Source: Thermoanaerobaculia bacterium
Lineage (GTDB): Bacteria; Acidobacteriota; Thermoanaerobaculia; Multivoradales; JAHEKO01
Reading direction: 5' to 3'
Length of the DNA: 57,777 nt
Assembly (NCBI GenBank): GCA_945787635.1
Contig: CALZIK010000172.1
Span: 1 to 57,777, forward strand
In this document: positions 19,880-40,560 of the stretch, in pieces
Numbering within the stretch: position 1 is the first letter of the stretch
Layout of the letters: every line of letters starts with the position of its first letter
Position numbers and translations under genes: made by a program
The notes under the pieces: generated by a model
Told to the model about the DNA's origin: nothing
The model's database searches: none
The model's input: only the letters and a program-made list of their open reading frames with translations

Positions 19880-21143
19880 CCCTGCGCTGAAGCGCCCGGT
19901 AGCTGACGCCCAAAATGGCGGCTGCCTCCTTCTTGTCTCCGCCGGCGGAGCGCAGAGCCTCCTCGACCTCCCGCCGACCCTCTGATTCGGCCCCCTGGGC
20001 CAGCAGTCCCTTGAGGTCGGCCACCGTTAGCGTGTTGCTTTCGCAGAGAATCGCCGCGCGCTCGAGCAGGTTGGCCAGCTGTCGAACGTTGCCCGGCCAC
20101 TCCTGCTCCTGGAGCACCTCGCCGGCTCGAGGCGTGGGCACCAGCAGGGGCCGCCGCAGCCGGGCACAGATACCTTCCAGGAGGTGAGCGACGAGAAGAG
20201 GAGTATCAGACGCACGATCTCGTAACCGCGGCAGTTCAATCGGGAAGACCTCGAGTCGAAAGTACAGATCGGAGCGAAATTCGCCTCGCTCGACCATCAC
20301 CTGGAGATTGCGATTGGTGGCCGCCACCAGCCGAACGTCCGCATGCAATGTCTGGCTCCCTCCGACCCGCTCGAACGCGCGCTCCTCGAGAACCCGGAGG
20401 ATCTTGCTCTGAATTCCCAACCCGAGCTCGCCGACCTCATCCAGGAGAAGAGTGCCTCCCTGCGCCACCTCGAAACGCCCCCTCTGACGCTTGTGGGCGC
20501 CTGTGAAGGCACCTTTTTCGTGCCCGAAAAGCTCGTTCTCGAGTAGCTGCTCCGGTAGAGCCGCCGAGTTGACCGCCACGAACGGACCGGCGGCGCGCGC
20601 CGAATGGGCGTGAATCGCTCTGGCGAAAAGCTCTTTGCCGGTGCCGCTCTCACCGGTCAGAAGCACCGTGCTCTCGGTGGCCGCAACGCGCATCGCGAGC
20701 TTGGCAGCCGCTCGAATCAACGGGTGCCGGCCCACGATCGGCGGAACCCCGGGCGCTTCGAGCAGCAATGCCTCGGTCTCGCCTCCGAGGTGCGATTCGA
20801 TCAACGCCGCCAGATCGTCCAGTTCGACCGGCTTTTCCAGAAAGTCGCTCGCGCCCATCTTCATGGCGTCCACGGCCGTCTGCACAGTGCCGTGCGCGGT
20901 GAGCACGATCACCGGAACATCCGGGCGAGCCCCGCGGCTGGCCTCGAGAACATCGAGCCCCGAGGCGGCGGGAAGCTTGAGATCGGTGACCACCAGATCG
21001 AACTGTCCGGTGCCTGCCAGGGTCACGCCCTCGGCGCCGTCGGCGGCAGCGGTGACCGCATAGCCATGCTGCTCGAGCGCCGTGGCGAGCAGTCGCCGCA
21101 ATGCGCCACGGTCCTCGACGAGGAGAATGGTCGATGGCCGCAT
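19836..21143 (-). CDS. NtrC/PilR-family sigma-54-dependent response regulator
   Basis: 435 residues with three domains: receiver (1-120; phospho-Asp in VVTDLKLP, Lys in LEKPVE), AAA+ sigma-54 interaction domain (about 140-375; Walker A GESGTGKE, the GAFTGA loop in HEKGAFTGAHK, Walker B TLLLDEVGE, R-finger area), and a Fis-type helix-turn-helix at the C-terminus (KKEAAAILGVSYRALQRRVK). The GAFTGA loop marks a true sigma-54 activator. It is encoded 8 bases after selA on the same strand and meets the sensor kinase gene tail to tail. The two sigma-54 promoters in this window are plausible targets. Confidence 0.94.
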   Translation of the reverse strand: MRPSTILLVEDRGALRRLLATALEQHGYAVTAAADGAEGVTLAGTGQFDLVVTDLKLPAASGLDVLEASRGARPDVPVIVLTAHGTVQTAVDAMKMGASDFLEKPVELDDLAALIESHLGGETEALLLEAPGVPPIVGRHPLIRAAAKLAMRVAATESTVLLTGESGTGKELFARAIHAHSARAAGPFVAVNSAALPEQLLENELFGHEKGAFTGAHKRQRGRFEVAQGGTLLLDEVGELGLGIQSKILRVLEERAFERVGGSQTLHADVRLVAATNRNLQVMVERGEFRSDLYFRLEVFPIELPRLRDRASDTPLLVAHLLEGICARLRRPLLVPTPRAGEVLQEQEWPGNVRQLANLLERAAILCESNTLTVADLKGLLAQGAESEGRREVEEALRSAGGDKKEAAAILGVSYRALQRRVKEYDLEGFPKYRG

Positions 21144-28281: not shown

Positions 28282-28677
28282 ATGCGAGAAAAAGACAGAT
28301 CGCTGCGACGGAGGCGCCAGCGCCGCCTGAAGCGGCTCAAGAAACGCCGTAGCGAGCTCATGGCACAGGTCAAGACTACCCGGCGCGAGGCATCGAAACG
28401 GACCAAGGCGAAGGCCGCCGCATCTGCTGCCGAGCCCGAGGCGGAAACCGTCGCCAAGAAGACCGCAAAAAAGAAGACCACCACCAAGAAGACCACCAAG
28501 GCCGCCGCCAAGAAGACCGCCAAGAAGACCGCCAAGAAGACCGCCAAGAAAAAGACCACTACCAAGAAGAAAACCGCCAAGAAAAAGACCACCACCACCA
28601 AGAAGACCACCAAGAAAAAGACCGCCGCCAAGAAGACCGCGAAAAAGACGGCAAAAAAGACCACCAAGGCTGATTGA
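28282..28677 (+). CDS. Histone H1-like / AlgP-like Lys-Ala-Thr repeat protein
   Basis: 131 residues. The N-terminal 30 are very basic and helical ([20 protein letters not shown]); after a short linker, residues from about 55 to the end are almost only Lys, Ala and Thr in KKTAKK and KKTTTKK units. The opposite strand reads as a long Gly/Leu/Phe-rich frame, a shadow of the repeat. A good ribosome site (AAGGAGAG) precedes the ATG. Proteins with such tails (AlgP, H1-like Hc1) bind DNA without sequence preference and compact it; the tail length usually varies between strains. It precedes glyA by 13 bases. Confidence 0.85.
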
Positions 28678-29959: not shown

Positions 29960-30143
29960 AGCTTGCTGAAGAACCCTGGCGGGTCGCGCCCGCCAAGGCT
30001 TGTTGTGCAGTTTGCAGGGCGCGAGGAGGAGTCGATGCGGTGGCGTCAACGACGACCAGTAGCGCCGCAGATGCGCCGCAACCCCTTGGCGCCCGTCGGG
30101 TTGCGGCGGCGTGGGCCGATCTGCCGGGGTTGTTCAGCAAGCT
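29960..30143. mobile_element. MITE-like element with terminal inverted repeats (type A)
   Basis: 184 bases with 23-bp ends in inverted orientation: AGCTTGCTGAAGAACCCTGG at the left and AGCTTGCTGAACAACCCCGG at the right read on the other strand, matching at 20 of 23 positions. Inside are two strong hairpins: TGGCGGG/CCCGCCA (29977-29995) and GCCGCAACCC/GGGTTGCGGC (30075-30107). No gene is encoded. The right end overlaps the last codons of folC and supplies its TGA. The shape fits a non-autonomous transposon or large REP-type repeat. A flanking target duplication was not clear. Confidence 0.65.
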
Positions 30144-31447
30144 CCCAGAGGCTCGGCGGCGCTCGGCGGAACCCCAAAGCGCTCGCGCAGGGCTCCCCGC
30201 ACCCACCCCACCAGATACAGGGAGCCGCACACGACCAGCGGCAGATCCCCTTCCAGAGCACGATCGAGGGCGGCGTCTAGATCGGGCTCGACGACGACGC
30301 CGGGCTCGGGCAGCCACGACGCCAGCAGAGCCGGGTCCAGTGCCCGATCACTCGGGGGCTTGGTCAAGACGCTTCTACTTGCGCTTCGAGTGACGGCTTC
30401 TAGCACCGGTCGAGCGTCCTTGTCGGCGAGCACTCCGAACAACACGTCGTGATCGCCGAGGTGTTCGTCGAGAAAGGCCGCCAGCGCGCTTGCCCCCTGC
30501 GGGTTGTGGGCGGCGTCCAGCCAGAGCGTCTTGCCGCCAGGGAGGACGACGGTCTCCAACCGCCCGGGCCAGCGGCAGGCTTTCACCCCCCGCTCGATGG
30601 CGAACCGATCGAGCTGGCTCCAACCATCCTCCGCCAACTCTTCGGCGGCGGTAACCGCCAGGGAGAGATTTCGAACCTGATGCTCCCCGAGCAGGGGAAG
30701 GTCAAGCTCGTAGGTCTCGATCGAGGTCCGAAGTCGGACTCGCTGGCCGTCCTCGCGAAGCTGGGCAGAGACACTCCGAACGCGGTCGCGCACATCCACG
30801 AGCGGAGCTCCGATCTCCGCCGCGCGGGCACGAAGCGCCGCGCAAGCTTCCTCAACGGTTGCACCGCAGATGGCGACAACACCGGACCGAAAGATTCCGG
30901 CCTTCTCACGTGCGATAGCGGTCAGTGTATCGCCCAACTGCTTGGCATGATCGATCCCAATCTCGGCCACCACCGAGAGCTGCGGTTCACACGCATTGGT
31001 CGCGTCCAGGCGCCCTCCCATGCCGACTTCGACGACCGCCAGGTCGATTTTCGAACGCGCGAACCAAAGACAGCTCGCCAGGCTCAGAGCCTCGAAGTAG
31101 GTCGGCGGCTCGAGATCGGTCGACCTCGCTTCCTCCAGAATCTCGTCAAGCAATCCGGCCAGCTGGTTTCTGGCGATCGCGCGGCCGCCGATCCGGAGAC
31201 GCTCTTCGACACCCTCGAGGTGGGGAGAGGTGAACAGGCCGGTTCGGTAGCCGGCCGCGGCGATCATCGATGACAAGAGCGACGCGGTCGAGCCCTTGCC
31301 GTTGGTCCCAGCGACTAGAACCGTCGCATAGGCGCCCTCCGGGTGCCCGAGGTGCGCCAGCAAGCGATCGACGCGCCCCAACTCGAGCCGGGCGCCCCAG
31401 CTTTCGAGGCTCTCGAGAATCTTGTCCGGGTCGCGCGCGAGCGACAT
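30134..31447 (-). CDS. folC: Folylpolyglutamate synthase / dihydrofolate synthase
   Basis: A Mur-ligase family enzyme that adds glutamate to folates. The 437-residue protein has the ATP loop VLVAGTNGKGSTA at about residues 41-53, TSPHLEGVEERLRI, the VEVGMGGRLDATN motif and the C-terminal WLDAAHNPQGASA. ATG 31447 is preferred to the in-frame ATG at 31468, which lies at the edge of a hairpin. The last three codons and stop are formed by the terminal repeat of the adjacent MITE-like element, so the native C-terminus may have been replaced. Confidence 0.93.
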   Translation of the reverse strand: MSLARDPDKILESLESWGARLELGRVDRLLAHLGHPEGAYATVLVAGTNGKGSTASLLSSMIAAAGYRTGLFTSPHLEGVEERLRIGGRAIARNQLAGLLDEILEEARSTDLEPPTYFEALSLASCLWFARSKIDLAVVEVGMGGRLDATNACEPQLSVVAEIGIDHAKQLGDTLTAIAREKAGIFRSGVVAICGATVEEACAALRARAAEIGAPLVDVRDRVRSVSAQLREDGQRVRLRTSIETYELDLPLLGEHQVRNLSLAVTAAEELAEDGWSQLDRFAIERGVKACRWPGRLETVVLPGGKTLWLDAAHNPQGASALAAFLDEHLGDHDVLFGVLADKDARPVLEAVTRSASRSVLTKPPSDRALDPALLASWLPEPGVVVEPDLDAALDRALEGDLPLVVCGSLYLVGWVRGALRERFGVPPSAAEPLGAC

Positions 31448-31468
31448 TGTACGATCTCGCCGGAACAT

Positions 31469-31494
31469 CTAGCCTGGCTGGTTCACCAGGCTAG
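31469..31494. repeat. 9-bp perfect hairpin between accD and folC
   Basis: CTAGCCTGG and CCAGGCTAG pair perfectly around an 8-base loop. The accD stop codon (31491-31493) is inside the stem and folC begins about 20-25 bases later. No T tract follows on the minus strand, so it is unlikely to end transcription; it could slow ribosomes or protect the mRNA between the two genes. CTAG at both ends recalls the type B element at 35167. Confidence 0.6.
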
Positions 31495-32345
31495 CTCCGG
31501 TGCCGGAGATGCCGCAGGCACGTGGCGAGCGTTCCTTTGAGCTCGCTTCGTTCGACGACCATGTCTAGAAAGCCGTGCTCCAGGAGAAACTCGCTGGTCT
31601 GAAACCCCTCGGGCAGGCTTTCTCTGATGGTCTGCTGGATTACCCGCGGTCCGGCAAACCCGATCAGCGCTCCCGGCTCGGCGATATTCAAATCTCCGAG
31701 CATGCCGAACGACGCCGTAACGCCGCCGGTGGTGGGATCGGTCAGCACCGACAGGTACGGAGCGCCACGCTCACGCAGTCGAGCGAGCGCCGCCGAAATT
31801 TTCGCCATCTGCATGAGCGACACGACGCCCTCCTGCATACGGGCTCCACCCGAGGCCGAGACTACGACCAAGCCACACCTTCGCTTCGCAGCCTCTTCCG
31901 CGGCGCGGGTGATCTTCTCTCCCACGACCGATCCCATCGATCCGCCCATGAAGCGGTACTCCATGCTCGCTACGATCGCCGGCACGCCGCCGATATGTCC
32001 CTCGACGACGATCACCGCTTCCTCTTCGCCGCTCTGGCGCGCGTAGTCCTTGGCTCGATCCCGATAACTTTTGCGGTCTCTGAACTTCAACGGATCGGCG
32101 GGCAGCAGACCTCGATACAGCTCGCGCGGCTCGTCCTCGTCGACCAGGAGCCGGATCCTCGCGCGACTGTCGATACGGAAATGAAATCCGCACTTGGGAC
32201 AGATCTGCAGGTTGCGGTCCAGTTCCTTGGAATAGATGATCTCGCGACAACCGTCGCAGCGTACCCACAGTCCCTCGGGCACGGTGCTTCGCGGCCGGTC
32301 CGAGGCGGCGCTTCGCGGTCTCTTTGATTTGCGGAACCAGGCCAT
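31491..32345 (-). CDS. accD: Acetyl-CoA carboxylase carboxyltransferase beta subunit
   Basis: 284 residues. The N-terminal zinc ribbon has CDGC and CPKC, then the crotonase-like domain with SASGGARMQEGVVSLMQMAK, DPTTGGVTASFGMLGD and GFAGPRVIQQTI. This is the fatty-acid type AccD, which needs an AccA partner that is not in the window; it is distinct from the PccB-like gene at 26570. ATG 32345 gives the usual start (MAWFRK). The accD-folC order is common in bacteria, which supports an operon. Confidence 0.96.
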   Translation of the reverse strand: MAWFRKSKRPRSAASDRPRSTVPEGLWVRCDGCREIIYSKELDRNLQICPKCGFHFRIDSRARIRLLVDEDEPRELYRGLLPADPLKFRDRKSYRDRAKDYARQSGEEEAVIVVEGHIGGVPAIVASMEYRFMGGSMGSVVGEKITRAAEEAAKRRCGLVVVSASGGARMQEGVVSLMQMAKISAALARLRERGAPYLSVLTDPTTGGVTASFGMLGDLNIAEPGALIGFAGPRVIQQTIRESLPEGFQTSEFLLEHGFLDMVVERSELKGTLATCLRHLRHRS

Positions 32346-32427
32346 AAGACAAGCCGGCAGGCGGCCGGCGAGTGATGCTAGCAAATGCCGCTAGCCTGAA
32401 ATTGACACGCCCGGCAGTCAGCCCGGC

Positions 32428-35022
32428 TCAGCCGAACAGCAGCTTGATGCCGCCAGCAACCAGACCGGCGGCCAGCAGGCCCGCGGCGACCCCCCACCAG
32501 AAGCGGACAACCTTGCTGCGCGCCGTGGGTGCGACCCCTACCACGCTGCGGGTGTGCAGATCGGACTCGACGGCACCTGGCGTCGAGACGGCCTCGAGAT
32601 CAGCCTCGCCGGCTGGACTTTCAACCGGCGCCTCGGAGAACAACCCGCTGGCGAACCCACTTAGCGTCTGCTCGCTGGGAACCGGATCCAGGGTCCGCAG
32701 GAGAGTGGTGAGGTTCTGTCCCATCGCGCCGGCGGTTTGATAGCGAGCGGAAGGTCGCTTGGCGAGAGCCTTGATCAAGATCCGGCGAACTTCTTGAGGC
32801 AGACCGGGGCAATGCTTGCGCGGATCATCGAAAGCGCCCGCCCGCACAGCATCCAGAAGAGAAATCTCATTGTCCGCCTCGTAGAGACGACGGCCGGTGA
32901 TCATCTCGTACATGACGCTGCCCAGCGAGTAGATATCACTTCGAGCGTCCACGGGTTTGCCCGACGCCTGCTCGGGCGACATGTATTGGAGCTTTCCCTT
33001 GAGGGCCCCGATCTCGGTCTGAATGACCGAAGAAACCGCCTTTGCCACACCGAAGTCACAGAGCCTGACCCGACCGTCATGGCCGACAAGAACGTTGCGA
33101 GGAGAAACATCTCGATGGACCAGAGCCATCGGATTGCCATCGCCGTCCTGTCGCGTGTGGGCGTACTCGAGACCTCTCGACACTTCCGCGCCCACCAGCA
33201 GGGCCAGACCGATCGGCATCTGTTCTGAGCGCTGCCGCAGACGATTCAGCAAACTGCGCAGATCTCTGCCATCGACGTACTCCATCGCGATGAAGTAGCT
33301 GGCGCCGATCCTCCCGAGGTCGTAGATCTCGACCAGGTTCTCGTGGGTGAGCCGAGCAGCAAGCTTGGCCTCCTCGATGAACATCGTCACGAACTCACTG
33401 TTCTCGGCGAGATGCGGCAGGATCTTCTTGATCGCGACGGTCTTGCGAAAGCCCTCCATCCCGAGCATGCTCGCGCGCCAGACCTCGGCCATCCCTCCGA
33501 CGGCGATTCGCTCGTCGAGCCGGTACTGCCCAAAGCGCGTCTCCTCGCCGTCGGTCTGCGGTTCGATCAGCACCGGAGGCGCGACCGATGCCTCGGCAAG
33601 ACTCTGCTCCTCGGAGACCTCCGCGATCTCTAGTGGCAAATCCTCCGGCGCGTCCGACTCGGCGCGGGCTCCGGCACCCACCGACGACTGCGCTGGCTCA
33701 GCTGACTGCGCTCCGGCCTCCGAATACGTTTTTGCTTCTTCCCCTTCCTCGTCCGACCCGTCTTCCGCCGCGCTCTCGACCAGAGTCTCGGGGTCCGCAT
33801 CGTCTATGGAGGGCTTGAGCTGCGCAACCAGCTGTTCGACCGACGGGTCAACGATGAATCCCGCGGCGGGCGCCCGCTGTTCGATCCGGGGCTCTACCCC
33901 TTCAATCAGCAAATCCGTCTCGGCCTCCCAGGAACTCGACACCGGGGGCTCGATTCCCGCCGAGTCGGCCGGGTCCGAAAGCGCGATGCCGCTCCACGAG
34001 CCTTCCTCGAGTTCTGCGACCTCGGCCTCCGTGTCGATTCCGGTTTCGATTTCGGCTCCTTGGACTTCGACTTCGGTGTCGATTCCGGTTTCGATTTCGG
34101 CTCCTTGGACTTCGACTTCGGTGTCGATTCCGGTTTCGGCTTCAACCTGGACTTCGGCTTCGGCAACCTCAGCGTCGGCTTCAACAGCAGCGTCGCCTTC
34201 GGCTTCGGCCTCAGCTTCGACCGCGGCTCCAGCGACCTCGGCATCGACCTCAGCTTCGACGTCGGCTTCCTCGTCGGCTTCCTCGTCGGCCTCCGCTTCG
34301 ACTTCGGCGTCGGCGTGGAGTCCGGCTTCGACCTCGGCGTCGCTGTCAGTATCGGCTTCGGGCTCAGCGTGAGCCTCGGCTTCGGCTTCAGCATGGACTT
34401 CGGCTTCGACCTCGATGTCGGCGACTTCGACCTCGGCATCGGCGTGAATTCCGGCTTCGACCTCGGTATCGGCGTCGACTCCAGCCTCGGTGTGGGCTTC
34501 AGCTTCGACCTCGGCGTCGGAGACATCAGACATCGCCGAGCCTGGCTCTTCGGGCTGCGCCGCCGGTGGCACGGCGGTCTCTCCCAACTCGACGAGCAGA
34601 TCGCCGAAGATATCGTCGGAGCTCAGCTTCTGTCCTAGGTTCAAGGCCCCGGCCGCGCTCGACTGATGCGGCAAAGACATCACCCGGTCGGCCGCTTCGA
34701 TGAGTTCCTGGGCGCGTGGTGGCTTGCTGAGAATCTGATCGGCCCCCGCTTCGAAGGCGCCGAAAGCACCGTCGCCGCCATCGGCGGACTCGAGCAAGAG
34801 CACTCCGGGGCCGCCGTTCTTCGAGCCGAACGCGCGCACCAGCTCCCCGGCCCCTTCGACTTCGCAGTCCACGATGACCAGCGCAGGCTGGTGGTCGGCG
34901 CTGGCGCGAAGCGCCTCCTCGCGGCCCGCGGCGGTGGTCACCCACCAGCCCTGCGAGCCAAGGACGCTTCGGACATGACGTCCGATTCGCCCTTCGCCGG
35001 AAACCACCAGGATCACGATCAT
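32428..35022 (-). CDS. Ser/Thr protein kinase with N-terminal receiver-like domain
   Basis: 864 residues in four parts. Residues 1-120 look like a CheY receiver: the phospho-site Asp is present (LVIVDCE) and so is the Lys (ILSKPP), but the acidic pair near residue 8-10 is replaced (VVSGEG), so it may not be phosphorylated normally. Residues 150-480 are a very acidic linker of Glu, Ala, Val and Asp, with three near-identical 15-residue repeats. Residues 500-770 are a kinase domain with all key motifs: GGMAEVW, VAIKK, HRDVSPRNVLV, DFGVAK. One membrane span lies at the end. No PASTA domain is present. Confidence 0.9.
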   Translation of the reverse strand: MIVILVVSGEGRIGRHVRSVLGSQGWWVTTAAGREEALRASADHQPALVIVDCEVEGAGELVRAFGSKNGGPGVLLLESADGGDGAFGAFEAGADQILSKPPRAQELIEAADRVMSLPHQSSAAGALNLGQKLSSDDIFGDLLVELGETAVPPAAQPEEPGSAMSDVSDAEVEAEAHTEAGVDADTEVEAGIHADAEVEVADIEVEAEVHAEAEAEAHAEPEADTDSDAEVEAGLHADAEVEAEADEEADEEADVEAEVDAEVAGAAVEAEAEAEGDAAVEADAEVAEAEVQVEAETGIDTEVEVQGAEIETGIDTEVEVQGAEIETGIDTEAEVAELEEGSWSGIALSDPADSAGIEPPVSSSWEAETDLLIEGVEPRIEQRAPAAGFIVDPSVEQLVAQLKPSIDDADPETLVESAAEDGSDEEGEEAKTYSEAGAQSAEPAQSSVGAGARAESDAPEDLPLEIAEVSEEQSLAEASVAPPVLIEPQTDGEETRFGQYRLDERIAVGGMAEVWRASMLGMEGFRKTVAIKKILPHLAENSEFVTMFIEEAKLAARLTHENLVEIYDLGRIGASYFIAMEYVDGRDLRSLLNRLRQRSEQMPIGLALLVGAEVSRGLEYAHTRQDGDGNPMALVHRDVSPRNVLVGHDGRVRLCDFGVAKAVSSVIQTEIGALKGKLQYMSPEQASGKPVDARSDIYSLGSVMYEMITGRRLYEADNEISLLDAVRAGAFDDPRKHCPGLPQEVRRILIKALAKRPSARYQTAGAMGQNLTTLLRTLDPVPSEQTLSGFASGLFSEAPVESPAGEADLEAVSTPGAVESDLHTRSVVGVAPTARSKVVRFWWGVAAGLLAAGLVAGGIKLLFG
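34031..34138. repeat. 45-bp tandem repeat (2.4 copies) in the kinase linker
   Basis: Two identical 45-base units (34031-34075 and 34076-34120) and an 18-base start of a third encode copies of a 15-residue unit with the sense TEVEVQGAEIETGID. The exact DNA identity points to recent slippage or unequal recombination, so copy number may vary between strains. Confidence 0.9.
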
Positions 35023-35355: not shown

Positions 35356-36099
35356 ATGTCTGGACACAGCAAGTGGGCATCGATCAAACGCAAGAAAGCG
35401 GTCACCGACTCGCGTCGCGGCCAGCTCTGGACTCGCCTTTTGAAAGAGATTACGGTTGCCGCCAGGCTCGGCGGGGGCGATCCGAACGGCAACGCCCGAT
35501 TGCGTGTGGCCATGCAAGATGCCAGGGGCAGCAACGTTCCGAGCGACAACATCGAGCGGGCCATCAAGCGCGGTACGGGCGAGCTCGAAGGCGTTTCCTA
35601 CGAGGAGCTGTCGTACGAGGGATACGGCCCCGGCGGAGTGGCCATCCTGGTCGAAACCGTGACCGACAACAAGAACCGCACTGTCGCCGAAGTCCGCCAC
35701 CAGTTTTCCAAGCACGGAGGCAGCCTTGGAGAGAACGGCTGTGTGGGATGGATGTTCGAGAAACGCGGCTACCTGGCGTTCGAAGCCGACTCCATGGGCG
35801 AAGAGGAGTTCATGGAGCTGGCTCTCGAGCTCGACGTCGAGGATCTGGCCTCGGATCCGGAGGGACACGAGCTGTTTACCGCGCCCGAACGCTACCTGGA
35901 GATCCGTGAGCTCGTCGAGGCGAAGGGAATCGAGCCGATCGCCAGCGAGATCGCGATGATACCCACCAGCTATGTCGATCTTCCCGATGAGCACGGTGGG
36001 ACCATCCTGAAGTTGATCGAAGCACTCGAAGAGCTCGACGACGTCCAGAACGTGTGGACCAACGTCAATGTCGAGACCGCGGTCGCAAGCGCGAGCTGA
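35356..36099 (+). CDS. yebC: YebC/PmpR family protein
   Basis: 247 residues, matching the family from the signature MSGHSKWASIKRKKAVTDSRRG onward, with NGNARLRVAMQDARG, SYEGYGPGGVAILVE and the C-terminal domain. YebC proteins have been described as DNA-binding regulators and, more recently, as factors that help ribosomes through proline stretches. A GGAGG site lies upstream. It precedes ruvC closely, a common pairing. Confidence 0.96.
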   Translation: MSGHSKWASIKRKKAVTDSRRGQLWTRLLKEITVAARLGGGDPNGNARLRVAMQDARGSNVPSDNIERAIKRGTGELEGVSYEELSYEGYGPGGVAILVETVTDNKNRTVAEVRHQFSKHGGSLGENGCVGWMFEKRGYLAFEADSMGEEEFMELALELDVEDLASDPEGHELFTAPERYLEIRELVEAKGIEPIASEIAMIPTSYVDLPDEHGGTILKLIEALEELDDVQNVWTNVNVETAVASAS

Positions 36100-36100
36100 C

Positions 36101-36616
36101 TTGCCGTCCACGACGGTACGCATCCTCGGATTGGACCCCGGCAGTCGGCACACCGGATTCGGCGTCATCGACACGTGCGCAGGCCGGCTCACGCCGGTGC
36201 GGTTCGGTCGCATCTCGACCCGACCCAAGGCCGAGCTCGCGGTCAGGTTGGCCGAACTCGCCACGCAGCTCGACTCCCTTCTGGACGAGCTGCGGCCTTC
36301 CCACGCCGCGCTCGAGACGCCGTTTCAGGGTCTGAATCCACGATCCCTGATCGTCCTGGCGCAGGCGCGCGGCGTCCTTCTGGCCGCGCTGGCCCGCAGG
36401 GGACTCACGATCCGTGAGTACTCCCCTACCCAGGTAAAGAGCGCCGTTTCCGGCTACGGGAGAGCCGCCAAGGCCCAGGTGGGCCACATGGTGCGCCAGA
36501 TCTTGGCGCTCGGCCCGGAGGTGCCCTCAGAAGATGCCGCCGACGCCCTGGCGGTCGCAATCTGCTGCGCCAATCGCAGCCGACTCGAGAGCCTGACCGA
36601 GACAGCGCGAGACTGA
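36101..36616 (+). CDS. ruvC: Crossover junction endodeoxyribonuclease RuvC
   Basis: 171 residues from the TTG at 36101; an ATG at 36068, inside yebC, would add 11 residues. RuvC cuts Holliday junctions with two metal ions held by four acidic residues, seen here as ILGLDPGSRHTG (Asp), ALETPF (Glu) and SEDAADALAVAIC (two Asp). The ends fit the family, with a short C-terminus. No ruvA or ruvB follows in the window; the next gene is exbB after a long leader. Confidence 0.93.
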   Translation: MPSTTVRILGLDPGSRHTGFGVIDTCAGRLTPVRFGRISTRPKAELAVRLAELATQLDSLLDELRPSHAALETPFQGLNPRSLIVLAQARGVLLAALARRGLTIREYSPTQVKSAVSGYGRAAKAQVGHMVRQILALGPEVPSEDAADALAVAICCANRSRLESLTETARD

Positions 36617-36834: not shown

Positions 36835-37512
36835 GTGGCTGAATTCGGCGGTACTTTTGTGAAGATTTTTCGGGACGGTGGTTTCGTAATGTGGCCGCTT
36901 CTACTCTTCTCGGTGCTCTCGGTGGTGTTCATCATCGAGCGCTGGCTGGCGCTCCGGCGGGCCAAGATCAACGTCAACGAGTTCCTCGCCAAGACCCGCA
37001 AGGAACTGATCGTCAATCGTTCGGTCAAAAACGCCATCAAGGTCTGCGAGGACTACCGCGGTCCCGTGGCCTCGATCCTCAAGGCCGGCCTGCTCAAGTA
37101 CGGACATCCCCGCGAGGACGTCGAGAAAACCATCGAAAACGCGGCCCTCTATGAGATGGGTCGACTCGAGCGCAACCTCGTGTGGCTGGCCAGTATCGCC
37201 AACGTGGCGCCCCTGCTCGGCTTTTTCGGAACGGTGGTCGGCATGATCAAGTCCTTCGAGGCGCTTGCCGAAGCCGGCCTCTCCAATCCGGGCTTGGTCG
37301 CGGCCGGCATCTCCGAGGCCCTGATCACGACCGCGGCAGGCCTTTTCGTCGCGATTCCCGCGCAGTTGGCGTACAACTTCTTCATGAGCCGGATCAACAC
37401 GTTCGTTCGCGACATTGAAACGTCCTCGAACATGCTGCTCGAAACCTTCAACGAGATGGAACGGAGTGGAATCGCCGGCGACGCCGCGCCTGGTCAGCCG
37501 GGCCGCGCCTAG
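36835..37512 (+). CDS. exbB: MotA/TolQ/ExbB proton channel protein
   Basis: 225 residues with three spans (about 20-40, 120-140 and 165-185). The conserved region LVWLASIANVAPLLGFFGTVVGMIKSFE and SEALITTAAGLFVAIPAQ gives the channel residues. With ExbD it turns proton motive force into movement of TonB. The gene starts at GTG 36835 with a strong AGGAGG site. It could be called TolQ by homology alone; the tonB gene downstream favours an ExbB role. Confidence 0.92.
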   Translation: MAEFGGTFVKIFRDGGFVMWPLLLFSVLSVVFIIERWLALRRAKINVNEFLAKTRKELIVNRSVKNAIKVCEDYRGPVASILKAGLLKYGHPREDVEKTIENAALYEMGRLERNLVWLASIANVAPLLGFFGTVVGMIKSFEALAEAGLSNPGLVAAGISEALITTAAGLFVAIPAQLAYNFFMSRINTFVRDIETSSNMLLETFNEMERSGIAGDAAPGQPGRA

Positions 37513-37533
37513 GCTCTTGATAGGAAGCACGAG

Positions 37534-37986
37534 ATGAGGCTCAAAGCCCGATCGGTTCAAAACACCGGAATACCAACGGCATCGATGGCGGACATCGCCT
37601 TCCTGCTGATTATCTTCTTCATGGTGACGATCTCGTTCGAGGTCGACAAGACTTCCGTAACGCTGCCGGAAACCAACATCCGTCTCGAGATTCCGAAACA
37701 GGCCGCGTACGTCTCGATCACCGAGAATGGCCAGATCCGAGTCTCCAGCGGAGAGGAGATCAGCGTTCCGGTCCCGGGACCGGACGAAGTCCTGTCTTTT
37801 GCGGCTGGCGTGGTTCAGGCCGACCCGACCAAACCCTTCGTACTCAAGGCTGACAAGGAAGTTCCGTACCAGTACGTCGATGGCGTCGTGGATTCGCTGA
37901 AGCAAGCCAAGGCTCAGGTCATCTACCTGCTGTCGATGCAAGACACCGTCGATGACGGCGGCGACGGCGACGAGTCAGGAGGCTAG
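37534..37986 (+). CDS. exbD: ExbD/TolR-family protein, copy 1
   Basis: 150 residues: a short cytoplasmic N-terminus, one span with the conserved proton-path Asp ([18 protein letters not shown]), then a periplasmic domain of about 100 residues with a KPFVLKADKEVPYQYVDGVVDSLKQA motif. The tail is rich in Asp and Gly. It sits between exbB and a second exbD, with spacing of about 20 and 5 bases. Confidence 0.92.
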   Translation: MRLKARSVQNTGIPTASMADIAFLLIIFFMVTISFEVDKTSVTLPETNIRLEIPKQAAYVSITENGQIRVSSGEEISVPVPGPDEVLSFAAGVVQADPTKPFVLKADKEVPYQYVDGVVDSLKQAKAQVIYLLSMQDTVDDGGDGDESGG

Positions 37987-37991
37987 GGCAA

Positions 37992-38429
37992 ATGAAGATC
38001 AAGAAGCCGCCGGTCAGTGACGAGATCCCCACGTCTTCGATGGCGGACATCGCCTTTCTGTTGATCATCTACTTCATGGTCACGACCACCTTCGCGGCAA
38101 CGCGCGGACTCGACTTTTCGCTACCTCCCGAAGACGACACGCCGCCGATGGTCGAAAAGGAAGAGGCGGTGCTCATCGAGATTCAAAGCGGGGGCGTGTT
38201 CGTGGTCGATCAGCAGACCATGCAGCTGTCCGAGATTCTCGACTATCTCAAGCCCAAGCTCGAACGAAACCCCAAGAAGCCCGTCATCATTCGCCCGCAG
38301 CCGGATGCTCAATACGGCTACATGGTGAACGTCTTCGACGAGCTGCGCCAGGCGGAAAGCAAGATCGGGATGAAGGTGGACAACATTTCGATTCCCACCC
38401 AGCGTGAAATCGAAATGTTCTGGTTCTAG
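37992..38429 (+). CDS. exbD: ExbD/TolR-family protein, copy 2
   Basis: 145 residues with the same layout as the gene before it: span and Asp in [21 protein letters not shown], then a periplasmic domain with [26 protein letters not shown]. The two copies are clearly diverged, so this is an old duplication and they may form a heteromer with ExbB. The tonB gene follows after 8 bases. Confidence 0.92.
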
Positions 38430-38437
38430 GAGTCCAT

Positions 38438-39151
38438 ATGGCGAAGAAAGAAGAGACTCAGTCCCAAACGCTTCAAGAAACCGACCTGGCGGCCGGCGAC
38501 TTCCTGACCTTCGCGCAGGAATACGACGAGGACCGCAAGACTATGCGCTGGGCCGCCATTGTCGCGGTCATCCTGCATATCGTCTTCTTCATCGTCCAGT
38601 TCCCGGAAATGGTCGCCGCCGAGCGAGAAACCAAGAAGGCCAAGGTCTACGTCGTGCAGCAGGTACGGTTCAAGCCGCCGCCGCCGAAGCAGCAGCAGGA
38701 AATCCCCAAACCGAAGTCGAAGAAGGTCCCGATTCCGGATCCCACTCCTGACGAACCGGAACCGATCCGGTTGCAGGAAGACATCGAGCCCGAAGTGGAG
38801 ATGCCCGATACCGACATCATCATGGGTATCCCCGACGGGCCGCCGCCGATGGAGCCATCCGGTCCGATTCGGGTGGGCGGTGACGTCAAACCTCCTCAGA
38901 AGACGTTCTTCCCCTCGCCCCAGTACACCGAGATCGCGCGCAAGGCGCGAATCACCGGAGTCGTTATCGTCGAGGCGATCATCGACAAAGAGGGCAGTGT
39001 CACCAACGTCAAGGTACTGAAGGGTCTGCCGATGGGACTCGACCAGGCAGCTGCGGATGCGGTGAAGCGCTGGAAGTTCGAGCCGGCAACGCTCAACGGC
39101 AAGCCCGTGGCGGTGATCTACAACCTCACCGTCAACTTCCAGTTGCAGTGA
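38438..39151 (+). CDS. tonB: TonB-like energy transducer
   Basis: 237 residues: about 35 cytoplasmic residues, one span (about 35-55, with a His in AVILHIVFF as in TonB's SxxxH anchor), a Pro/Lys/Gln-rich linker ([18 protein letters not shown], then [11 protein letters not shown]) and a C-terminal TonB domain (residues about 150-237, [34 protein letters not shown]). It passes energy from ExbB/ExbD to outer-membrane receptors. No TonB-dependent receptor is in the window. Confidence 0.93.
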
Positions 39152-39208
39152 GCGCGAGCCCAACGAGGAGCGGCATGGCCGGCAGCCGACCTCGGGGGCA
39201 AGCCCATC

Positions 39209-39230
39209 GTCGTCCGCAGATGAGGACGAC
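39209..39230. promoter_or_regulatory. Dyad GTCGTCC-N8-GGACGAC upstream of a sigma-54 promoter
   Basis: A perfect 7-bp inverted repeat with an 8-base spacer, centred about 100 bases upstream of the sigma-54 promoter at 39319. That is the usual place and form for an NtrC-family activator binding site. It may also be a chance dyad; the same motif was not found upstream of the pilin promoter. Confidence 0.45.
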
Positions 39231-39318
39231 ATGCAGCAGGCCCGCGACCGGGGAGCCGCCGAACGACGTTGGACTTCCGGTCCCCTCAGACGGCACCGTA
39301 GCAGCGCCAGTTCACTCG

Positions 39319-39334
39319 TGGCACGTTGCTTGCT
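39319..39334 (+). promoter_or_regulatory. Consensus sigma-54 promoter of the TPR gene
   Basis: TGGCACG-TTGC-TTGCT matches the full -24/-12 consensus TGGCACG-N4-TTGCW, with no mismatch. It lies 53 bases before the start codon of the TPR gene, which has an AAAGGAG ribosome site. Transcription would start near 39345, so the gene is probably expressed separately from the exbB-tonB operon under control of an NtrC-type activator. Confidence 0.85.
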
Positions 39335-39387
39335 CAACTACAAGATTGCGTGAGGGTGGCTAGACACCGATTGAAAGGAGACTCGAA

Positions 39388-40560
39388 ATGAAACGCAAAA
39401 CCACGACAGCGATCGTCGCCATGCTGGCCATGGTCCTTTCCGCCGGCCTGCTGAAGGCAGAGTGGGCGGACGGCGTTGCCGCCTTCAAGGCCGGAAACTG
39501 GGCCAAGGCCGAGGCCGAGTTCAAGGCTACGGTAGACGCCCAACCGGAATGGCCCGGGGGCCACTTCATGCTCGGCTGGACCTACCTCAAGCAAAACAAG
39601 GGCAAGGAAGCGGTGCAGCACCTGCGCAAGGCCTATGATCTCAACCCCGAAGACGCAAATACCCAGCTGCGGCTTGGCGAAGCCTACGTCGAGACCGGTC
39701 GCCACAGCGACGCGGTCGCGTTTCTCAGCAAGATCAAAGTCACGTCGCTGCCCAAGGATGCCCAGGGCTATCTGGCGCAGCTCAAAGCGGTCGCCCTCAC
39801 CAAGAGTGGCCAAGCGGATCGCGCGGTGTCCGAGCTTAAGAAATCCGCCGAAGCCAACCCCAACAACGGCGACATCTGGTATCAATACGGCTCGACGGCC
39901 TACAGCACCGGAGACACCGCGACCGCGATCTCGGCGCTGGCCAAGGCGGTCCAGCTCGACGGCGGCGATCTCACCAAGCAGAAGGTCTATGCTCAGGCCC
40001 TGGTAAGCCAGGCGGCCCGGATGCCGAAGGGCTCGGCCAAGGAAGGCCAGTACCGCAAAGCCGCTAGCGCAGCTCAAAAGGCAGTTGCCGGAAACGCGTC
40101 CTTCGACAACCTGATGCTCCTCGGCGACGCCGAGCTCGGCAGCAAGTCCTATGACAATGCGATCGCTACCTACAAACGCGCTTCCGCCAAGAACACCAAT
40201 GACTGGCTGCCGGACTTCTATGTCGGCCAGGCTTTCACCGCCAAGGGCCAGTACAAATCCGCTGAGTCCTCTCTGAAGACTTCTCTCAACCGCGCCAAGA
40301 ACGCCGCCGATCAGGCGAGGGTTTGGAAGCAGCTCGGCTTCGTCTACGAAAAGCAGAGGAACTTCACAGAAGCGATTACCGCCTACAATCGGGGCGGTGA
40401 CAGCGCGGGCGCGACTCGGGTCGCCGAAAACAGGAAGACCGAAGAAGAAAACAAGCGAATCGAGGCCGAGAACACCGAGATCCAGCGGATCAAAGAAGAG
40501 CAGGCCAAGATCGAAGCGGAGCTGAAGAACCTGCCCGGCGCGGCACCGCCCCGCAGTTGA
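39388..40560 (+). CDS. Exported TPR protein under a sigma-54 promoter
   Basis: 390 residues with a signal peptide (MKRKTTTAIVAMLAMVLSAG, cleavage likely before EWADG) and eight or more TPR units from about residue 28 to 350, the first being AAFKAGNWAKAEAEFKATV. The tail (about 350-385) is a Glu/Lys coiled coil. It probably acts as a periplasmic scaffold. It follows tonB after 236 bases that hold a sigma-54 promoter and dyad, and a terminator closes the unit. A pilus or envelope role is possible because the pilin shares the promoter type. Confidence 0.88.
   Translation: MKRKTTTAIVAMLAMVLSAGLLKAEWADGVAAFKAGNWAKAEAEFKATVDAQPEWPGGHFMLGWTYLKQNKGKEAVQHLRKAYDLNPEDANTQLRLGEAYVETGRHSDAVAFLSKIKVTSLPKDAQGYLAQLKAVALTKSGQADRAVSELKKSAEANPNNGDIWYQYGSTAYSTGDTATAISALAKAVQLDGGDLTKQKVYAQALVSQAARMPKGSAKEGQYRKAASAAQKAVAGNASFDNLMLLGDAELGSKSYDNAIATYKRASAKNTNDWLPDFYVGQAFTAKGQYKSAESSLKTSLNRAKNAADQARVWKQLGFVYEKQRNFTEAITAYNRGGDSAGATRVAENRKTEEENKRIEAENTEIQRIKEEQAKIEAELKNLPGAAPPRS

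Follow-up and report, generated by a model that had tools for sequence, protein, structure and literature searches.

A pseudo-receiver fused to a PknB-like Ser/Thr kinase: a candidate envelope kinase of the Acidobacteriota

A stretch of 57,777 nucleotides from a Thermoanaerobaculia bacterium (Acidobacteriota; GenBank assembly GCA_945787635.1, contig CALZIK010000172.1), hereafter the window, contains an intact open reading frame (ORF) on the minus strand, which runs from 35022 to 32428 with an ATG start and encodes a protein of 864 residues. From the N- to the C-terminus, this protein holds a head with a receiver fold, a disordered linker, a PknB-like Ser/Thr kinase domain and a transmembrane (TM) helix. 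The fused gene is widespread in Acidobacteriota, where it usually occupies one conserved position in the chromosome and usually ends in a TonB-type tail. The individual domains are already known; for the fused architecture and its conserved locus, no description was found in the open-access literature.

Domain structure of the fused protein

The head (residues 1–118; 34669..35022, minus strand) matches the Pfam receiver family PF00072 with E=1.4e-5 and 25.6 bits, slightly below the 30.2-bit cut-off, which is exceeded in a congener (L035), and phmmer aligns it with the solved receivers of KdpE and MtrA at E about 1e-5. An AlphaFold2 model of residues 1–150, built with 17 sequences, exhibits a (beta-alpha)5 core with a per-residue confidence (pLDDT) of about 90, and the matches listed by Foldseek for this model are all receivers or receiver-containing proteins, the best being 1nxt (E 8e-8, TM-score 0.81 by target length). 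The head therefore has the fold of a receiver, but not the full active site of a phosphorylatable one: D52 and K100 are kept, S8-G9 replace the acidic pair and E78 replaces the usual Thr/Ser. Pseudo-receivers have been defined as domains recognised as receivers that are devoid of one or more of the five active-site residues (PMC12632262), and the head is, by its sequence, a pseudo-receiver under this definition.

A complete receiver active site is found in none of 77 aligned related heads, and Asp occupies the phospho-site in 15 of them, mostly from the window's family. This column reads D13 N4 in the 17 heads of that family, N10 S9 A3 and others in the rest of the order, S13 T7 C1 in the sister orders, and S6 R2 A2 plus single D, Y and E in the other classes, with parsimony on the kinase tree requiring four changes of the Asp state. 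Because most heads of the window's family have D at this position and most other lineages have S, N, T or A, phosphorylation of D52 is considered unlikely and the head is probably non-phosphorylatable. D52 as a conserved phospho-site was rejected as a family trait, Asp being variable across the 77 heads.

The receiver fold is followed by a conserved short helix motif, LSSDDIFGDLLVEL (residues 133–146; 34585..34626, minus strand), with the consensus L(S/T)S-D-(I/L)-F-G-D-L-L, referred to below as the IFGDL helix. F139 does not vary among those aligned heads that extend into the motif, and F139, D141, G140 and their neighbours are the most conserved columns of the head region among the 77 heads; a full-length AlphaFold2 model places a helix at residues 135–145. 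The use of IFGD as a signature common to other proteins of the genome was tried and abandoned, the short DNA pattern being too frequent to be informative.

Next comes a disordered acidic linker (residues 151–493; 33544..34572, minus strand) of 343 residues, 109 of them Asp or Glu and five Lys or Arg (net charge -104), where the full-length model has a pLDDT of about 30. An earlier note on this DNA, made from the letters alone, had described about 330 residues of Glu/Ala/Val/Asp repeats. The acidic linker does reach that length, but the clear repeat core comprises only about 180 residues (164–345; 33988-34533; 70 acidic, none basic), so the extent of the repeats was somewhat overstated. An exact 45-bp DNA repeat lies inside this core.

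The kinase domain (about residues 497–790; 32653..33534, minus strand) matches PF00069 at 4.2e-36, above the Pfam cut-off, and retains the residues expected of a Hanks-type kinase (K532, E551, HRD636-638, N643 and DFG656-658). Its catalytic loop, HRDVSPRN, holds Ser640 in place of the usual HRDxK lysine, and the intact kinases of the family share the form HRD-V/I-SP; among ten own-genome paralogs examined, nine carry HRD-L/I-KP. The nearest kinases in the Protein Data Bank are PknB, PknA and StkP. The PknB_PASTA_kin model (NF033483) yields 265 bits versus a cut-off of 450, and a profile scan of the window protein gave no match to PASTA repeats. The TM helix (residues 837–863; 32434..32514, minus strand), at which the full-length model also has a helix (837–863), closes the protein. 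When the window protein and three relatives were scanned with NCBIfam, no whole-protein model scored above its cut-off; the only model to do so was that of the TonB C-terminal domain, in those relatives and not in the window protein.

The architecture outlined in the earlier note, a receiver-like head that keeps the phospho-Asp and Lys and has lost the acidic pair, joined in one ORF to a complete Hanks-type kinase with a C-terminal membrane anchor, is thus borne out by the fold, the Pfam matches and the relatives. Neither of the outcomes that it had named as fatal, a head that does not fold as a receiver or relatives with head and kinase as separate genes, was encountered. Two features of greater weight were out of its reach: the IFGDL helix behind the head, and the spread of the architecture across the phylum with its usual TonB_C end and conserved locus, described below.

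Conservation of the gene and its locus

The head was used as query against 99 related genomes, and the surroundings of the matches were then read. The same gene occurs in the window's genus (fusion in three of three genomes), in most families of its order, in sister orders of the class and, with the same architecture, at 13 loci from other Acidobacteriota classes; L181 and L182, whose matches were plain receivers with no kinase attached, were left out. A frameshift or assembly artefact is ruled out, as congeners and other families carry the same fusion under purifying selection. In a tree of kinase domains, 62 rows of this family stand apart from 10 own-genome paralogs (support 98), and their order follows taxonomy.

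Within the window's genus, the ratio of nonsynonymous to synonymous substitution rates (dN/dS) is about 0.1 for the head and about 0.05 for the kinase, some dS values being near saturation. In comparisons of few species pairs, the ratio for the head rises to 0.20–0.27 in genus g4, where the kinase is a pseudokinase, and to 0.35–0.45 in genus g7, where the kinase is gone. This covariation of the constraint on the head with the state of the kinase suggests that both domains cooperate, and is the best evidence for it.

In many relatives, the protein extends past the TM helix into the periplasm, with a further region and then a TonB_C domain (PF03544, up to 1.4e-20). This domain is absent from the window protein, its genus ending at the TM helix. 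Since the tail is present in sister orders and in other classes, TonB_C is likely to represent the ancestral state, and would have been lost in the window's genus.

The surroundings are conserved as well. On one side, ruvC, yebC or exbB is found in divergent orientation in 35 of 40 order-level loci and 15 of 20 class-level loci, and on the other side accD and folC usually follow on the same strand where the contig extends that far; among the loci from other classes, both genes lie downstream in five, and folC in two more. In the window, accD (acetyl-CoA carboxylase carboxyltransferase beta; 31491..32384, minus strand) starts 43 bp downstream and is followed by the gene of a folC-like Mur ligase (folylpolyglutamate synthase; 30134..31468, minus strand). 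The divergent neighbours yebC (35356-36099) and ruvC occupy 35356..36616 on the plus strand, and an exbB-exbD-exbD-tonB-TPR cluster (36835..40560, plus strand) is conserved beyond ruvC. In two genomes of family f3 (L164 and L165), the gene and accD are both missing from the conserved spot; no accD ortholog was found in these two genomes, and another carboxyltransferase remains.

Proposed regulation and alternative explanations

Computation shows which domains are present, how the head folds, what is conserved, where the gene lies, that TonB_C has been lost and how selection acts. The reading favoured here, with modest confidence, is that of an envelope kinase resembling the PASTA kinases, which would be under the control of a pseudo-receiver that acts independently of phosphorylation and would be reduced in the window's genus to its cytoplasmic half and anchor. 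Its ancestral form would comprise the pseudo-receiver, the IFGDL helix, a flexible linker, the PknB-like kinase, one TM helix and a periplasmic TonB_C domain, the latter being a likely sensor or force-coupled end comparable to the PASTA repeats of PknB and StkP. The cytoplasmic kinase, predicted from its sequence to be active, would phosphorylate Ser/Thr residues on its targets, and the pseudo-receiver and the IFGDL helix would together control it, by docking or allosterically, without Asp phosphorylation. As the window's genus has no periplasmic domain, the input would have to come through the cytoplasmic head, with the acidic linker acting as a lineage-specific spacer. The TonB_C domain of many relatives and the nearby ExbB/ExbD/TonB cluster support a link to the envelope, and gene neighbourhood and domain analogy suggest a further one to lipid synthesis via accD.

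Several points weigh against this proposal. Throughout the family, Ser stands in for the Lys of the catalytic loop, which makes kinase activity uncertain, and the full-length AlphaFold2 model (pTM 0.37) is of too low confidence to provide evidence of a head-kinase contact. The contrast in dN/dS comes from few species pairs, and the Asp kept in 13 of the 17 heads of the window's family may point to a function that was regained. A sensing or force-coupled role of the periplasmic TonB_C end is a tentative proposal drawn from gene neighbourhood and from analogy between domains, and we know of no experiment on any family member.

Parts of the protein resemble known systems. Like PknB and StkP, the nearest solved kinase domains, it has a cytoplasmic kinase and one TM helix, with an extracytoplasmic domain in relatives; unlike them, it has no PASTA repeats, TonB_C being found instead in relatives and absent here, and it holds an N-terminal pseudo-receiver, a long linker and HRDVSP instead of HRDLKP. 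FrzS from Myxococcus xanthus likewise begins with a receiver fold from which the residues for metal binding and the phospho-site are missing, continues in a long extension, and is described as neither binding Mg2+ nor needing Asp phosphorylation (PMC1974792); however, FrzS has a coiled coil, and the sections of that source drawn on here describe no kinase or membrane anchor. Fungal Rim15p kinases also combine a protein kinase with a receiver or pseudo-receiver (PMC12632262), but they are eukaryotic, their pseudo-receiver is C-terminal, and no membrane or TonB_C part is mentioned for them. Aspartate-less receivers (ALR) are reported to be frequent in Acidobacteria (PMC4395418), and a term search confined to main texts on ALR and pseudo-receivers (PMC4395418) returned no bacterial pseudo-receiver fused to a kinase or to TonB.

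The gene encodes a widespread, unnamed candidate envelope kinase in a poorly studied phylum, and the fusion of a pseudo-receiver to a kinase in many species bears on how bacterial pseudo-receivers switch, which a 2025 review has called a mystery (PMC12632262). A bolder and rather unlikely extension would be a phylum-wide, so far undescribed group of envelope-spanning kinases, in which the Ser/Thr kinase lies between a pseudo-receiver that needs no phosphorylation and a TonB_C end in the periplasm, and that work with the ExbB/ExbD/TonB motor and couple the state of the envelope to AccD-dependent lipid synthesis.

Among the alternatives, the one that survives best, although it is judged unlikely, is that the protein of the window's family is decaying and persists chiefly as a scaffold in the membrane that can do without catalysis and sensing. 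The window's genus has lost TonB_C and forms a long branch in the kinase tree. The kinase is gone in g7, a genus of the window's family, and apparently also in g8, where the gene is cut by the contig end with the TM helix and tail visible and no kinase. In g4 the kinase domain has no HRD, and the whole gene is absent from family f3 and from g5, where accD adjoins yebC with nothing between. However, the kinase of the window's genus is 86–92% identical between species, keeps the main catalytic residues and evolves at the low dN/dS given above. In genera g6 and g9, the gene sits away from the conserved locus.

Among sister genera in the window's family, loci L037-L040, L041 and L060 show in a natural series how the kinase has been lost or turned into a pseudokinase. 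L064 and L066 were not counted as natural losses despite having no kinase in the frame of the head, since L066 contains masked bases after which the reading frame is lost, and L064 continues into sequence that seems unrelated. As the fusion occurs in many species and there are natural cases in which the Asp, the kinase, the sensor domain or even the entire gene has been lost, the coupling of head and kinase is directly testable.

It is improbable that the head is a working, though unusual, receiver in which a histidine kinase phosphorylates D52, thereby switching the Ser/Thr kinase and linking both signalling systems. D52 and K100 are both present in three congeners and five other heads, E10 is kept, and Asp prevails in the window's family (13 of 17 heads). 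Nevertheless, S-G stands at both metal-binding acidic positions and Glu at Thr/Ser, the full set occurs in none of the 77 heads, nearly all heads outside the family have S, N, T or A at the Asp position, and FrzS, with a similar loss, is described as not binding Mg2+ (PMC1974792). Since the receiver active site is intact in no relative and the Asp varies, the suggestion of the earlier note that the fusion joins two-component and Ser/Thr signalling is weakened, whereas more evidence favours its other suggestion, namely a pseudo-receiver for binding a partner.

Linker and tail drift within the window's genus: identity between the linkers of congeners is 27–37%, and the acidic linker is best described as a lineage-specific, fast-evolving spacer, with repeats gained in the window's genus. 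That it is instead the functional core of the protein, a charged brush binding basic partners or setting the distance to the membrane, is very improbable, as the predicted disorder and net charge of -104 over 343 residues, matched by -116 in a second congener, give way to -23 over 172 residues in a third and to Pro/Ala-rich, mostly near-neutral linkers outside the window's family, to which the charged brush of the earlier note is confined. Many order-level relatives (L049, L055, L059, L067 and others) carry, between head and kinase, one or two recurring motifs of the type T-L-S-(G/S)-(L/V) that are absent from the window's genus; these motifs are possible candidates for kinase target or docking sites.

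Two further observations were made in the window. A gene at 28282-28677 (plus strand), placed between a carboxyltransferase gene and glyA, encodes a Lys/Ala/Thr-rich repeat protein of 131 residues that has no Pfam match and resembles histone H1-like bacterial proteins. Another receiver-like match lies at 20808-21128 (minus strand), within an open frame of 696 residues.
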